NCBI GenBank assembly: GCA_024697065.1
Contig: JAILGE010000010.1
Location: forward strand, 1 to 64,000
From: Lachnospiraceae bacterium
Lineage (GTDB): Bacteria > Bacillota > Clostridia > Lachnospirales > Lachnospiraceae
DNA length: 64,000 bases
Direction of reading: 5' to 3'
This document shows positions 414-44,228 of the stretch, piece by piece. Both the position numbers and the translations under genes were made by a program. Position 1 is the stretch's first letter. Every line of letters begins with the position of its first letter. The notes under the pieces are model-generated. The model was not told the DNA's origin. It did no database searches and saw nothing but the letters and a program-made list of their open reading frames with translations.

Positions 414-1553
414 ATGAGGAAAAAATTATTATCAATTGTTTTGACTGCTACCATGGCTGCCAGCATGCTCATCGGATGTGGTCTTCAGAGCGTGGATCAG
501 GGTGGTGCCCAGAATCCCGGTCAGGAGCCCGCAGGACAGGCAACAGATGCAGCCGTTGCTGCAACCGATGCTGCAACCGATGCAACTTCTGCAACAGATG
601 CTACTGTTGAGTTTGCAGCAGCAAATGATCCTAAGGTTACATTTGTTATGGCAGAGGTTAATCCACTTGATACTATCGTTGGTATGACTGATACAAAGTT
701 CAAGGAAGAAGTTGAGAGACTTTCCGGCGGATCCATCGAGATCGACCTCCAGGCCGGCGGGGTTCTCGGATCAGAGAATGATATCCTTGACGGTATGCTT
801 GCAGACAACGGAATCTGCGATATCTCACGTATTTCCGCTTTCTCTCTTACAAACTACGGCGGAACAAAGTCACTGCTTCTTTCTCTTCCTTACACATTCG
901 TAAGCAGAGAGCATTTCTGGAATTTCGCTCAGAGCGATCTTGCAAAGGAATTCCTTGAGGAGCCCCAGCAGAACGGCGCCGGCGTACGCGGCATCTTCTA
1001 CGGTGAGGAAGGTTTCCGTCATTTCTTCACATCAAAGGATGTTTCCGGAATCGAAGATCTTAAGGGGCTCAAGATCCGTGTTTCAAATGACCCTGTTATG
1101 AACGGTCTTGTTGAAGGTCTTGGCGCATCTCCTACAGTAGTTGCTTTCGGTGAGCTTTATTCAGCTCTTCAGACAGGCGTTGTAGATGCAGCTGAACAGC
1201 CTATCGCAAACTACAAGTCCAATGCATTCCCTGAGGTTGCAAACACAATGATCCTTGACGGTCATACACTTGGTGCTATCGAAGTTATCATCACTGACTC
1301 TGCATGGGAAAAGATGACTCCCGCTCAGCAGGATGCAATGATGGAAGCAGGTAAGCTTGCCGGTGAGTACTGCAAAGAGATCTCTGCACAGAAGGAAGCA
1401 GAAGTTCTTCAGCAGCTTAAGGATGAAGGATGCAATATCGTTGAAGTTACAGATATCAAGCCCTGGCAGGATGCTGTTGCGCCTGTAATCGATGCACAGG
1501 TTAACACAGACGAGCTCAAGGACCTTTATCAGCAGCTTCTTGATCTTCAGTAA
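414..1553 (+). CDS. dctP: TRAP transporter solute-binding lipoprotein (DctP family)
   Basis: This is the extracytoplasmic substrate receptor of a tripartite ATP-independent periplasmic transporter, here anchored as a lipoprotein as in Gram-positives. The first 22 residues form a lipoprotein signal peptide with lipobox LIGC (Cys22). An Ala/Thr/Asp-rich linker (about residues 40-70, with repeated ATDA units) precedes a DctP domain with the conserved EDLKGLKIRV segment and a GVVDAAEQP motif. GGAGGG at 401-406 sets the ATG start. The neighbours are the DctQ and DctM membrane subunits and uronate-catabolism genes, so hexuronate or an unsaturated uronate is the likely ligand (inference). A hairpin with a T-tract after the stop may raise its level relative to the membrane subunits. 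Confidence 0.93.
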   Translation: MRKKLLSIVLTATMAASMLIGCGLQSVDQGGAQNPGQEPAGQATDAAVAATDAATDATSATDATVEFAAANDPKVTFVMAEVNPLDTIVGMTDTKFKEEVERLSGGSIEIDLQAGGVLGSENDILDGMLADNGICDISRISAFSLTNYGGTKSLLLSLPYTFVSREHFWNFAQSDLAKEFLEEPQQNGAGVRGIFYGEEGFRHFFTSKDVSGIEDLKGLKIRVSNDPVMNGLVEGLGASPTVVAFGELYSALQTGVVDAAEQPIANYKSNAFPEVANTMILDGHTLGAIEVIITDSAWEKMTPAQQDAMMEAGKLAGEYCKEISAQKEAEVLQQLKDEGCNIVEVTDIKPWQDAVAPVIDAQVNTDELKDLYQQLLDLQ

Positions 1554-39810: not shown

Positions 39811-40887
39811 ATGGCTATCAGGACAGGCAAAGACCGACCGGGTGTTGCAAAAGAAGAGATGATGACAGATGCCGAAAGAGTGATCGTACTGCGATGCGTA
39901 TCACCGGAAGAAGGCAGACTGATCTTATACATCAGGAATAAAAGGATAAATAAAGTCTTTTTTGAAAAAGAAACACCGGGGTATATCACCGGTGATATTT
40001 ATTTGGCGAGAGTAAAAAATACAATTCCTTCATCCGGCGCAGCATATCTTGATGCGGGGCTGGATGAGCCGCTGTTTTTGAATACAGGGAACAGATCGCA
40101 TTTTGCGCCGGCCAACCGCAGGGAAGACTCTGTATTAAAGCCCGGAGACGAGATCGCAGTAAAGGTCAGGAGTACCGCTATAGGGAAAAAGGCAGCCAGA
40201 GCGATATGTGCGGATGAAGTGCCCAGAGAAGAATATATTCACAAAAAAGCTCCCTGTGTCCTTCACAGAGCTCCGGATGAATTTGAAAAAAGCATAAGAT
40301 ATGCGATGTCCTCTCCGGACTGCATCTGGTATACGGATGATAAGGCGATCTATGAAGATGCCCGCAGCTTAAAAGATAAAAAGCTTTCTGAAGAGAGCAC
40401 GTCTTCACAGCGGGATAAGAGCTGCGGTGAAGTGATCAGATTTTATGATGATGAGTCCATATCCATAAAGGCGCTGTTTGATCTAAGGCGGGCGGCGCAG
40501 GATATACTGGACCGCAGGGTCAGATTAAAAAGCGGAGCGGAGATAGTCATAGACCGGACGGAAGCAATGACGGTCATAGATGTCAACAGCGCATCATCGA
40601 GGCATGATTCCGTTCTTGCACTAAATCTAGAGGCAGCAAAAGAAGTTGTATACCAGATAGAGGCCAGAAATCTTGACGGGATGATCCTGGTGGATTTTGT
40701 CAACATGGATTCAACTGAAAGTGAAACGATATTGATTGAGGCTTTGAATGCAGATCTTAAGTCTCTCCAACCTGCGGCAAAGGCTGAAGATATAACAAAA
40801 TTAGGCATTGCAGAAATAGTAAGACCCAAATCAGGTAAAAACACCGGCAGTATAAAAGAGGCTATCAATAGTACTATATTAGCCTAA
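39811..40887 (+). CDS. rng: Ribonuclease E/G family protein, short form
   Basis: RNase E/G enzymes cut single-stranded AU-rich RNA. The 358-residue protein has an N-terminal S1 domain (about 50-130, GDIYLARVKNTIPSSGAAYLD) and the DNase-I-like catalytic region with Asp residues in MTVIDVNSAS and MILVDFVNM. It ends soon after EIVRPKSGK, where other members have EMTRKR followed by the zinc-link Cys pair CPxC; both the usual motif and the cysteines are missing here. It is shorter than the usual 400 or more. The rplU/rpmA genes that often follow are absent. Confidence 0.85.
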   Translation: MAIRTGKDRPGVAKEEMMTDAERVIVLRCVSPEEGRLILYIRNKRINKVFFEKETPGYITGDIYLARVKNTIPSSGAAYLDAGLDEPLFLNTGNRSHFAPANRREDSVLKPGDEIAVKVRSTAIGKKAARAICADEVPREEYIHKKAPCVLHRAPDEFEKSIRYAMSSPDCIWYTDDKAIYEDARSLKDKKLSEESTSSQRDKSCGEVIRFYDDESISIKALFDLRRAAQDILDRRVRLKSGAEIVIDRTEAMTVIDVNSASSRHDSVLALNLEAAKEVVYQIEARNLDGMILVDFVNMDSTESETILIEALNADLKSLQPAAKAEDITKLGIAEIVRPKSGKNTGSIKEAINSTILA

Positions 40888-40891
40888 GATG

Positions 40892-40991
40892 AAAAAAACG
40901 TATTCATATTCCGACGATTTTTAACAGAATATGGGTTAAAAATCGGAAACCCATTGTTTCTAAGGTTCGGCGGGGTTGAAGACGTTTTTTT
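40892..40991 (+). other. Candidate structured RNA downstream of rng
   Basis: AAAAAAACGT (40892-40901) and ACGTTTTTTT (40982-40991) form a perfect 10-base closing stem around a 100-base region. Inside are CGATTTTTAAC (40915-40925) with GTTAAAAATCG (40935-40945), and the mutually exclusive ATGGGTT (40931-40937) with AACCCAT (40948-40954). AACCC can also pair with GGGTT at 40973-40977. It could be a switch, a terminator with a large insert or an independent RNA. I recognise no known class. Confidence 0.45.
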
Positions 40992-41007
40992 ATATTGCTA
41001 ATATAAA

Positions 41008-41035
41008 TTTACGGAAAACGTATTTGGTATATAAG
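41008..41035 (+). promoter_or_regulatory. Possible promoter before the SHOCT-repeat gene
   Basis: TTTACG (41008-41013), 16-base spacer, TATAAG (41030-41035), about 48 bases before the ATG; an AGGAGG site lies at 41069-41074. AAAACGTATT at 41016-41025 repeats the sequence near 40895-40904. Confidence 0.4.
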
Positions 41036-41082
41036 CGGATCAGATATGTCCGTAATAATAAAAAACAGGAGGAACAATAAGG

Positions 41083-42735
41083 ATGGCAGTAGAAGTATTC
41101 CAGTGTAACTGGGGAAGTTCACTTAAGAGTTTTCTCTCAGCTAAGAGCCAGGAGAAACTTTTTCTTCAGATCGACGACACCAAGAGTGAAGTCAAGGTAA
41201 CCGGTAAGGGTTACATCTGTAATGAAGATGGTAAGAATGAATATGTATCCCAGTATGATTATCCCGCTAAGGATATCAGAGAGGTTAAGAAAGGTGAGTT
41301 CCAGGGTTCGGATGCCCTGATCATCGTTACAAAGCTTCAGACTCTTTACGGAGCTAAGAAGACACAGACTATTCTTCCCGGTCTTAAGGATATGGACAAG
41401 GCTATTGAGAGACTCACTGAGATCTCCAAGAATGCCGGCGGAATGTCCGGAGATTCCAAGTCAAAATCTGCAGCAGCACCTGCACCCGCACCTGCACCTG
41501 CAGCAGCAAGACCCGCTCCGAAGCCCGCACCTTCACGTCCTGCAGCAGCACCTGCGCCCGCACCTGCACCCGCACCTGCGGCAGCACCTGCACCCGCTCC
41601 GGCACCGGCACCCGCACCTGCACCTGTAGCAGCACCGGCTCCCGCAGCAGCACCTGCGCCTGCAGCAACTACACCCGTAGTTCCTGCATATACACCGTCC
41701 AGAACAGCATCATCTGCGCCTAAGACACCCGTTAAGGCAGCTGCCCCCGCTAAGAGCAAGGAATCTTATGAAGAAAAGAGACAGAAGCTTGAGATCCTGC
41801 ATGAGTCAGGAATGATCTCCGAGACAGAATACAAGGATAAGACCCTTAAGCTTATCTGCGAAGAGAGAGGCATGGGTGAGTACTACGACCAGATCAGCAA
41901 GGTTATCACAATGCATGAGTCTCATCTCCTCAGTGATGCTGAGTACGAGACCAGCCGTGATGCACTTGTAAGAGAGGCATTTGATCCTTCGATCCGTGAT
42001 CTTTCCAAGTTCCGCAGCAATACAGCCAAGCTTCCCATTATCCTTATCAGCGGTATCGTTTCCCAGGAAGAGTTCGATAACGGTAAGGATCAGCTCCTTG
42101 CAAGCGTTCAGTATGATGAGATGGATAACAATGATGACTTTACTCTTAAGCTTCAGAAGCTTCCCATCCTTATCGATGCAGAGCTTGTTACAAAGGAAGA
42201 GTACCAGTCTGATGTAAGCGAGCTTAAGGAGATGTTAAGCCCTTCAACATCCGATTCAATGGATGTTCTCGAGATGAAGCTTTCAAGATGGCCGGCAATG
42301 GTGGTTGCAGGCGCAGCTTCACAGCAGGAATACCAGCAGAAGCAGCAGACGCTTATCGCTGATGTAATGGCACTTCCCGCAGGTGATGAGTTCTCACTCC
42401 AGAACAAGATCGAGAGAGTAGTAATGCTCCGCGATAAGACATGGCTCACAGAGATGGCATATCACGACAAGAAGCTCGAGATCTTAAAGGGAATCATCGA
42501 GAATCCGGATGTTGTATCCAGAATGAAGCTTCTCCTTGTTGCTAGAGATTGCAAGCTTTCCTCAAACGAAGAGTTCGAGACAAAGAAGCAGGAAGTTATC
42601 AAGGACATCTTTGCTCCTTACAAGGATATGACAGAATTCAAGGAGAAGGCAAACCTGCTTAAGAATATCAGCGAAGCCGGTATCATCTCACTTGACGAGT
42701 ACAACAACTACAAAGAAAAACTTATGGGAATCTGA
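41083..42735 (+). CDS. Protein with N-terminal PH-like domain, Pro-Ala linker and eight SHOCT-like repeats
   Basis: The 550-residue protein has three parts. Residues 1-120 look like a small beta-rich PH-like domain (FLQIDDTKSEVKVTGKGYI, then an amphipathic helix DMDKAIERLTEI). Residues 129-224 are a Pro-Ala linker. From about 235 to 548 there are eight units of a helical hairpin shaped like the SHOCT motif, where a Leu-rich helix, a Gly/Leu-Ile/Val-Ser/Thr turn and a (D/E)EY/F-xxxK-xxLL helix recur every 43 residues or so. No signal peptide or membrane segment. SHOCT domains usually occur singly at protein C-termini and may bind nucleic acid or mediate oligomerisation; function here is unknown. 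It has its own terminator. Confidence 0.85.
   Translation: MAVEVFQCNWGSSLKSFLSAKSQEKLFLQIDDTKSEVKVTGKGYICNEDGKNEYVSQYDYPAKDIREVKKGEFQGSDALIIVTKLQTLYGAKKTQTILPGLKDMDKAIERLTEISKNAGGMSGDSKSKSAAAPAPAPAPAAARPAPKPAPSRPAAAPAPAPAPAPAAAPAPAPAPAPAPAPVAAPAPAAAPAPAATTPVVPAYTPSRTASSAPKTPVKAAAPAKSKESYEEKRQKLEILHESGMISETEYKDKTLKLICEERGMGEYYDQISKVITMHESHLLSDAEYETSRDALVREAFDPSIRDLSKFRSNTAKLPIILISGIVSQEEFDNGKDQLLASVQYDEMDNNDDFTLKLQKLPILIDAELVTKEEYQSDVSELKEMLSPSTSDSMDVLEMKLSRWPAMVVAGAASQQEYQQKQQTLIADVMALPAGDEFSLQNKIERVVMLRDKTWLTEMAYHDKKLEILKGIIENPDVVSRMKLLLVARDCKLSSNEEFETKKQEVIKDIFAPYKDMTEFKEKANLLKNISEAGIISLDEYNNYKEKLMGI
41467..41754 (+). repeat. Ala-Pro codon repeat encoding the linker
   Basis: Runs of GCA/CCT/CCC/CCG codons encode the Pro-Ala linker. 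The repeat is imperfect at third positions, so it is kept by protein selection rather than being a pure microsatellite, but copy number may still vary between strains. Confidence 0.85.
41785..42726 (+). repeat. Eight SHOCT-like protein repeats
   Basis: Units begin near residues 235, 273, 316, 359, 402, 445, 485 and 525. Each has the core form (R/K)(L/V)xxLxxxGxIS(x)EEYxxKKxxLL, for example KLEILHESGMISETEY, KLPIILISGIVSQEEF, KLPILIDAELVTKEEY and LLKNISEAGIISLDEY. DNA identity between units is low, so this is an old array. Confidence 0.75.
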
Positions 42736-42748
42736 TAAGTTTGATCTC

Positions 42749-42786
42749 ATACAGCCGGGCAGCAATGCCCGGCTGTATTATTTTTA
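42749..42786 (+). terminator. Terminator after the SHOCT-repeat gene
   Basis: ATACAGCCGGGC (42749-42760) pairs perfectly with GCCCGGCTGTAT (42767-42778), followed by TATTTTT. Confidence 0.93.
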
Positions 42787-42829: not shown

Positions 42830-42835
42830 ATAGTT

Positions 42836-43016
42836 ACCGGATGTCAACTTAAGGTCTTCTGTTTTTTGAGCCTACATTACTTTAAACGGGATTCCTAAAT
42901 TGCTCGGCCGATGTCATGCCCCGGCAAGTATTTCAGGGAAGGCAGACGTTGATGCTGCGGTTGCCCACCTAGACATGTCTAGGAGTCAAAGAGGGAGACT
43001 GGACATTCGGTTTTTG
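42836..43016 (+). ncRNA. ssrS: 6S RNA
   Basis: 6S RNA mimics an open promoter and holds sigma-A RNA polymerase. The closing stem is ACCGGATGTC (42836-42845) with GACATTCGGT (43002-43011), one G-U pair, followed by TTTTT. Next inside, GTCTTC pairs with the GAGGGAGAC side. The Clostridia-type conserved blocks TTGAGCCTACAT, AACGGGATTCCTAAAT, GGTTGCCCACCT and AGACATGTCTAGGAGTC are present in order. Length, about 180 bases, is normal. It has its own promoter and ends 27 bases before the BrkB-like gene. Confidence 0.88.
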
Positions 43017-43944: not shown

Positions 43945-44228
43945 AGTTTATAAGTAAAAGCTGTGATGGTGCACAGTAAGAGATGTTTCCGGATATATAT
44001 CCGGTCTTGTCACAGAGAAGGCGATCGTCGGCTGAGAGTCGCCAGACATTATCAGATCTGAAATTCACACCGGAGCCTGCAGGCTGAAATATTTCTTTAA
44101 TAACAGTAAGTCTGCACGTTACCATGCGTTAAATGGATAGAGGCGTCCGATCTGTAAGATCGGGAACCAGGGTGGTATCGCGGATAAACATTTCGTCCCC
44201 GGATGGCTTTTTAGCCATCCGTTTTTTA
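43945..44228 (+). promoter_or_regulatory. T-box riboswitch (tRNA-Phe) with terminator, upstream of pheST
   Basis: This T-box leader senses uncharged tRNA-Phe. The T-box antiterminator sequence AACCAGGGTGGTATCGCG is at 44165-44182, and the terminator GGATGGCT/AGCCATCC with T6 is at 44201-44228. A candidate specifier UUC (Phe) sits at 44064-44066 in the Stem I internal loop region (AAATTCACACC). When tRNA-Phe is uncharged, its 3' end stabilises the antiterminator and pheST is transcribed. The leader start is estimated from the promoter. Confidence 0.9.

Follow-up and report, generated by a model that had tools for sequence, protein, structure and literature searches.

The SHOCT domain (PF09851) is widespread in bacteria, and several functions have been proposed for it. 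As described by Eberhardt et al. (2013, PMC3581485), it usually occurs in one copy, which lies in 89.2% of cases within 50 residues of the C-terminus. The proposals made there comprise oligomerisation, nucleic acid or protein binding and localisation, and a test of oligomerisation with one isolated SHOCT domain was negative (PMC3581485). In 2024, membrane anchoring was proposed for SHOCT-like domains (PMC11237479). The 2013 description also includes PH-SHOCT pairs in bacteria and a protein of Naegleria gruberi, D2VS68, with eight SHOCT repeats (PMC3581485). The statement of the initial annotation that SHOCT occurs once, at the C-terminus of a protein, is therefore right as a rule, but a protein with eight copies was published as early as 2013 (PMC3581485), and an eight-copy SHOCT protein is not new in itself.

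The gene described here lies in a window of 64,000 nucleotides from a Lachnospiraceae bacterium (positions 1 to 64,000 of contig JAILGE010000010.1, GenBank assembly GCA_024697065.1). The open reading frame, its coordinates and the presence of a Pro-Ala spacer are as initially annotated (Table 1), and results of our analysis strongly support the division of the C-terminal 327 residues into eight diverged, non-identical SHOCT units. The protein resembles other SHOCT proteins in its predicted two-helix unit, in the turn G-I-I-S/T-x-x-E-Y/F and in the C-terminal location of the last unit, but it differs from them in having eight tandem units of fixed number, a long Pro-Ala linker and an N-terminal domain (N-domain) without a Pfam family. 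Compared by description only, the Naegleria protein (PMC3581485) also consists of eight non-identical SHOCT units, but its host is a eukaryotic amoeba. A search of the open-licence literature revealed no bacterial eight-SHOCT protein of fixed unit number and such architecture, and no paper naming both SHOCT and Lachnospiraceae. What is new here is a bacterial protein of this kind, in which eight SHOCT units of fixed number are combined with the N-domain and the Pro-Ala linker.

Table 1. The eight-SHOCT protein gene and adjoining features in the window (residues of the protein in brackets)
Feature	Position	Strand	Remarks
Upstream neighbour, RNase E/G family	39811..40887	+	PF10150
Structured leader between RNase E/G gene and array gene	40888..41082	+	fold z -4.66; 0/200 shuffles equally stable
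Eight-SHOCT protein gene	41083..42735	+	ORF, 550 aa
N-terminal conserved domain (1-122)	41083..41448	+	A1 mean pairwise column identity 0.81
Pro-Ala-rich linker (126-223)	41458..41751	+	composition
Array of eight SHOCT units (224-550)	41752..42732	+	PF09851 39.5 bits on 229-550; 16 modelled helices
SHOCT unit 1 (224-265)	41752..41877	+	
SHOCT unit 2 (266-307)	41878..42003	+	
SHOCT unit 3 (308-349)	42004..42129	+	
SHOCT unit 4 (350-391)	42130..42255	+	without Pfam match singly
SHOCT unit 5 (392-434), divergent	42256..42384	+	weak in window alone; without Pfam match singly
SHOCT unit 6 (435-475), divergent	42385..42507	+	weak in window alone; without Pfam match singly
SHOCT unit 7 (476-515)	42508..42627	+	without Pfam match singly
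SHOCT unit 8 (516-550), C-terminal as in canonical SHOCT proteins	42628..42732	+	without SHOCT match singly
Intrinsic terminator of array gene	42749..42778	+	13 pairs, then T-rich tail

Two alignments were used, namely, A1, which comprises the window protein and nine homologues (10 sequences), and A4, which comprises the window protein and 14 homologues (15 sequences). Conservation is higher in the N-domain than in the array (0.81 vs. 0.61 as mean pairwise column identity within A1). The linker that separates them contains 43 Ala and 31 Pro among 99 residues (126-224), and its length varies between homologues. The highest mean hydropathy of the window protein over 19 residues is 1.02, so there is no membrane-like stretch, in agreement with the earlier statement that a membrane helix is lacking. 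Every one of 15 sequences has an acidic array, with a net charge of -10 to -26.

The PF09851 profile matches the whole window protein with 31.2 bits and its residues 229-550 with 39.5 bits, where the curated Pfam cut-off is 27 bits, and it matches all 10 members of A1, the window protein included (E ≤ 1). In the case of units scanned singly, SHOCT was detected in units 1-3 with 16, 13.4 and 14.7 bits, each below the cut-off, and was not found in any of units 4-8. A scan of the own genome with PF09851 gave nothing above the cut-off, with three units of the array listed at E values of 0.22-0.54. Since single units score weakly or have no match, the count of eight needs evidence beyond Pfam. In a test limited to the window protein, each unit was scored by a model built from the remaining seven, and 2000 residue shuffles served as controls; the scores of units 1, 2, 3, 4, and 7 were reached by none of the shuffles, that of unit 8 by three, that of unit 5 by 25, and that of unit 6 by 91. 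In A4, where each unit was given its mean score across the 15 sequences, all eight units surpassed each of 300 column shuffles under the model built from the other seven, and the result was the same (0/300 for each unit) with a SHOCT model derived from six other proteins (L036, L037, L061, L067, L076, and L078). This set of six includes the two single-SHOCT relatives to which we return below (L036 and L037) and a pair of nearly identical proteins (L076 and L078). The assumption that the resemblance of the units is unlikely to result from chance is thus borne out for every one of them, and so is their number, by these tests together with the Pfam score of the repeat region.

A sliding scan of the window protein with the six-protein model gave peaks at units 1-7, of which that of unit 6 is at 4.5 bits, and an extra shoulder at residues 486-492, while unit 8 is located at the edge of the scan, outside the listed peaks. 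The consensus pooled from eight units of 15 sequences reads approximately K-L-x-K-L-x-x-L-x-x-x-G-I-I-S-E-E-E-Y/F-x-x-K-K-x-E-L-I. Its E-Y/F anchors are 38, 43, 43, 43, 43, 38, and 42 residues apart in consecutive units, so the step is near the 43 residues noticed at first, but it is not strictly regular. Of the eight units, the last one alone is within 50 residues of the C-terminus, and the protein departs from the single copy that is a typical trait of SHOCT proteins, though not a requirement. The gas vesicle protein family GvpG (PF05120) is matched by eight of 10 members of A1 at E ≤ 1 (best E 4.4e-7), but the repeat region of the window protein scores 17.3 bits with it, below the Pfam cut-off of 30.6 bits.

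An AlphaFold2 model based on A1 predicts 16 helices in the array, which pair as eight hairpins, with pLDDT of about 90 across most of residues 231-550 and below 50 for residues 1-225. The repeated helical hairpins that had been expected of such a model are thus present in it, and the units of the array are predicted to be alpha-helical hairpins. AlphaFold2 can be overconfident on repeats, as indicated by work that concerns beta-solenoids (PMC11795689). A Foldseek search of the PDB with the model gave 389 matches at E ≤ 10 and none at E ≤ 0.001, and a search of viral models also gave nothing at E ≤ 0.001. As no solved or viral structure matched at this threshold, the stacking of the hairpins as a solenoid is a feature of the model. 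In their predicted series of hairpins and a probable docking surface, the units resemble HEAT, ARM and TPR alpha-solenoids, but the array has no structural match at E ≤ 0.001. By sequence, the sole PDB match of the array profile was GroEL (E 0.54), and the single SHOCT of L061 also had one match (E 0.46); both were taken as chance.

The weak Foldseek matches include HEAT-like solenoids, e.g., importins, which would be compatible with a generic HEAT-like alpha-helical solenoid that resembles SHOCT by convergence, as would the absence of SHOCT matches for units 4-8 scanned singly and of any match over the cut-off in the own-genome scan. We consider this explanation very improbable, as SHOCT scores above the curated cut-off for both the protein and the repeat region, the six-protein SHOCT model detects all eight units in the average of 15 sequences, and a similar N-domain occurs also with a single SHOCT.

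The array model (E ≤ 1e-10) matches 31 of 35 genomes of the genus to which the window belongs, and 22 of 23 when only genomes of at least 90% completeness and at most 5% contamination are counted. Among the 35 array matches in the genus, which were judged by span, most without individual reading, 33 span 324-325 aa, one spans 326, and the remaining one covers the model from position 16 to 326 only. Tandem pairs of complete genes are present in four of the 35 genomes. In the order as a whole, the N-domain was detected in 11 of 392 genomes, representing four of 173 genera, own genome included, and the nine of these that lie outside the genus are 27-53% identical in this domain. The array of all nine distant homologues outside the genus, each of which was read individually, is 327-329 aa long; together with the spans in the genus this answers in the affirmative the question, raised initially, of whether the repeat number is conserved across Lachnospiraceae. 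Ten loci were found in named genomes, nine of them titled Lachnospiraceae and the tenth a Bacillota MAG, and the nearest relative among them is that of Lachnospiraceae bacterium XPB1003, with 97% identity in the best segment.

The order of units is conserved as well, with 87 of 112 units being nearest to the window unit of the same number. This holds for all 56 units in five rows from named genomes and two rows of genus g28, and for 31 of 56 in the rows of genera g6 and g39. The conservation of length and unit order indicates that the array is old and held at eight, and is not a product of tandem duplication that is recent or still fluctuating. When 398 genomes of the phylum were searched with the array (E ≤ 1e-4), that of the window was the only array found; the second match, in G1047, is L067, a protein of membrane type that ends in a single SHOCT and has no array.

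A search of 397 genomes with the N-domain profile (E ≤ 0.01) gave matches in 18 genomes, comprising six strong ones (E ≤ 3.7e-45), two that represent relatives with a single SHOCT, and ten (E 0.001-0.007) that we attributed to chance: eight of the latter are in frames that we take to be HisH-type, and two in unrelated short frames. The two single-SHOCT relatives are L036 (genome G587; N-domain E 2.6e-6), whose C-terminal SHOCT scores 28.7 bits, above the cut-off, and L037 (genome G613; N-domain E 1.7e-4), whose C-terminal SHOCT scores 18.9 bits, below it. They share with the window protein an N-domain match and a C-terminal SHOCT, but have one SHOCT only, a different middle region and no Pro-Ala linker. 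The frame of L037 contains one internal stop. Because these two distant relatives join a similar N-domain to one C-terminal SHOCT, the array gives the impression of a SHOCT tail that has expanded, and its origin through the expansion of an ordinary tail of this kind is, in our opinion, the simplest reading of the sequence comparisons.

The N-domain was initially described as PH-like, and this label found no support in Pfam, in the PDB sequence search or in a profile comparison with bPH_3. No Pfam family matched the N-domain of the window protein at E ≤ 10, and six weak matches obtained in a Pfam scan of 13 N-domain members do not include any PH family. The comparison by hhalign, which was made with shallow profiles and with bPH_3 (PF14470) only, gave a probability of 0.3% with five relatives and 0.2% with seven, and the scores were no better than those of one reversed and eight shuffled versions. 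Searched against PDB sequences, the N-domain had 26 matches at E ≤ 10, the best of which, to designed TIM barrels (E 1.2e-5 and weaker), were rejected as effects of composition, since no stretch passes alone. The PH fold consists of a barrel of seven strands with a C-terminal helix as its cap. Both the full model and that of the N-domain alone contain strands and a last helix (residues 104-117), but their confidence in this region is too low for a judgement on the fold (pLDDT below 50 in the former and, with 11 sequences, a mean of 39.5 in the latter). In the succession of a small N-terminal domain and SHOCT, the window protein is similar to bacterial proteins with PH and C-terminal SHOCT (PMC3581485). 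It differs from those represented by L061, which has a PF14470 match and a SHOCT tail read by eye, in that its N-domain has no detectable relation to bPH_3 and that it contains eight units instead of one.

Codon usage suggests that the protein is probably abundant. With the region of the ribosomal S10 cluster (19 ORFs) as a reference and Ala and Pro codons left out, the codon adaptation of the array gene is 0.795, which is the highest value among 54 ORFs of the window (median 0.548); the S10-cluster ORFs themselves, in a leave-one-out calculation, are in the range of 0.602-0.800. At 12 loci of relatives, to which the reference of the window genome was applied, the array gene has the highest rank nine times, the second rank twice, and the third rank once. 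Outside this codon test are the other loci with the whole gene or a part of it, namely, L005, L009, L010, L048, L049, L051, L054, L069-L072, L057, and L058. The last two lie in genomes G352 and G660 of the window's genus. On the same reference, the values for the array gene of L050 and L053 (genus g6) are modest (0.523 and 0.524). Codon adaptation is a proxy for abundance.

The upstream RNase E/G gene has a codon adaptation of only 0.406. As the array gene also has a terminator of its own, which had been predicted and is in place, it is probably expressed separately from the RNase gene. The leader was right to be called structured, as it folds well, but clear similarity to it was seen by eye in only one (L001) of eight relatives aligned. 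It may contain the terminal part of the upstream transcript. A promoter scan from position 40880 to the start codon listed no sigma-70-like site. Individual control of the gene, proposed earlier, is thus plausible: the terminator and the difference in codon adaptation speak for it, but a promoter of this type was not listed and the leader is not clearly kept beyond L001.

An RNase E/G ORF match precedes the array gene in all ten loci of named genomes and in L055, from another genus. In L004, the array gene is located between the RNase gene and rplU, as identified by Pfam, and the same order was read by eye from the ORFs of L007, L009, and L055. Such an arrangement could suggest a scaffolding role in RNA decay or in the assembly of ribosomes, which would be exerted in trans to RNase E/G or be tied to the rplU-rpmA-obgE cluster that the gene often precedes. 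However, an RNase ORF match is absent in eight loci of two other genera (L048, L049, L050, L051, L053, and L054 of g6; L052 and L056 of g28), and in L052, the array gene is adjoined by genes of a protein kinase and a phosphoesterase. In addition, the codon adaptation values of 0.795 and 0.406 do not point to a fixed stoichiometry with RNase, and the array is acidic. We regard a role of this kind as quite unlikely. As the neighbourhood differs between genera, the gene context names no partner.

The probable abundance of the protein, its two ends joined by a flexible linker, and its unequal hairpins of conserved order make a cytosolic adaptor or scaffold, present in abundance, the best reading, to which we give an even chance. 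According to it, the eight hairpins would stack as one rigid rod or alpha-solenoid, the unequal units of which could present several docking surfaces to protein partners. The N-domain would bind another partner or self-associate, and the flexible Pro-Ala linker may permit both ends to work independently, so that the protein could keep components together in the cytosol. The initial annotation had supposed a large cytoplasmic scaffold; the cytoplasmic location is consistent with the lack of a hydrophobic segment, and the scaffold role is what we infer from the above features. A bolder and doubtful version of the scaffold reading is a ‘SHOCT solenoid’, i.e., a new class of bacterial scaffold that would have arisen by a single expansion of a SHOCT tail, become frozen at eight units, rank among the most abundant cytosolic proteins and organise an undescribed cell-wide structure or enzyme assembly.

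The window protein lacks a hydrophobic segment and its array is acidic, neither of which favours binding to membranes or nucleic acids. This concerns in particular the possibility that SHOCT units are peripheral membrane anchors, eight of which would together grip the inner leaflet and let the tethered N-domain act in the cytosol. Typical binders of acidic bacterial lipid differ from an acidic array such as this one, with its net charge of -10 to -26 in 15 of 15 sequences. Although a proposal of membrane anchoring for SHOCT-like domains has been made in the phage shock protein study (PMC11237479), and amphipathic hairpins would be compatible with it, we find this function unlikely for the window protein. 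Self-assembly to a filament, ring or other large structure, with the array as a structural rod, could also account for the predicted hairpins, the likely abundance and the fixed length, and the tandem gene pairs of four genomes of the genus could give mixed assemblies. An isolated SHOCT, however, failed to oligomerise a carrier protein in the experiment reported in 2013 (PMC3581485), and self-assembly seems to us improbable to a similar degree.

Whichever partners an adaptor or scaffold of this type would have, a soluble, probably abundant protein that consists mostly of SHOCT, with units of conserved number and order, could be purified, solved, and used as bait, which would open the question of what SHOCT binds to direct tests. 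Its relatives with one SHOCT and a similar N-domain provide a natural comparison.

A scan of 148 genomes of the class with PF09851 (E ≤ 0.05) revealed, among the matches listed, frames with two or three SHOCT matches, and none of the units of the window array itself. Because the scan misses these units, diverged arrays elsewhere could escape it. In the case of L075 and L077 from Clostridia, several SHOCT-like units are present per frame as in the window protein, but by eye they are nearly identical to each other, and L075 differs further in a hydrophobic, secretion-like segment at its start (also by eye). In L076 and L078, inspection by eye indicates two units, preceded by a hydrophobic segment at the N-terminus and followed by one that contains Cys, an arrangement unlike that of the window protein.

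The Rfam score of the 6S RNA candidate downstream of the eight-SHOCT gene (29.2 bits) falls under the gathering score of 46.4, and this segment is possibly a 6S RNA. Among the relatives' loci carrying the eight-SHOCT gene, L006 has a candidate at the corresponding position that scores 32.2 bits, and L001 has one of 29.2 bits; the same search (E <= 0.05) returned none in L002, L003, and L008. The T-box leader is also matched in L001, L002, L003, and L008; L006, searched alike, is without a listed match.

Features of the window and of two other Clostridia loci
Feature	Locus	Positions	Strand	Remarks
Candidate 6S RNA	window	42832-43016	+	Rfam; between eight-SHOCT gene and yihY/brkB
T-box leader	window	43954-44203	+	107.4 bits; upstream of phenylalanyl-tRNA synthetase genes
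379-aa ORF	window	414-1550	+	lipoprotein-like start, judged by eye
Protein with near-identical SHOCT-like repeats	L075	146-889	-	
Protein with near-identical SHOCT-like repeats	L077	764-1225	-	

Two complete eight-SHOCT genes lie in tandem in 4 of the 35 genomes of the genus (L069, L070, L071, and L072). The N-domains of the two copies are not alike, and the ORF that precedes these pairs was taken for a putative RNase E/G gene.

In the two loci of another genus, g28 (L052 and L056), the eight-SHOCT gene is followed by genes of a protein kinase with DUF6273 and of a calcineurin-like phosphoesterase, the Pfam basis for these neighbours being the L052 locus. The start of this kinase is, as judged by eye, zinc-ribbon-like. 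On the opposite flank lies a gene that we take to encode a pilus-type ATPase.

The L075 and L077 proteins have two or three SHOCT-like repeats each, and the N-terminal segment of the former is hydrophobic and secretion-like. The codon adaptation of the 379-aa ORF (0.786) is the second-highest in the window.
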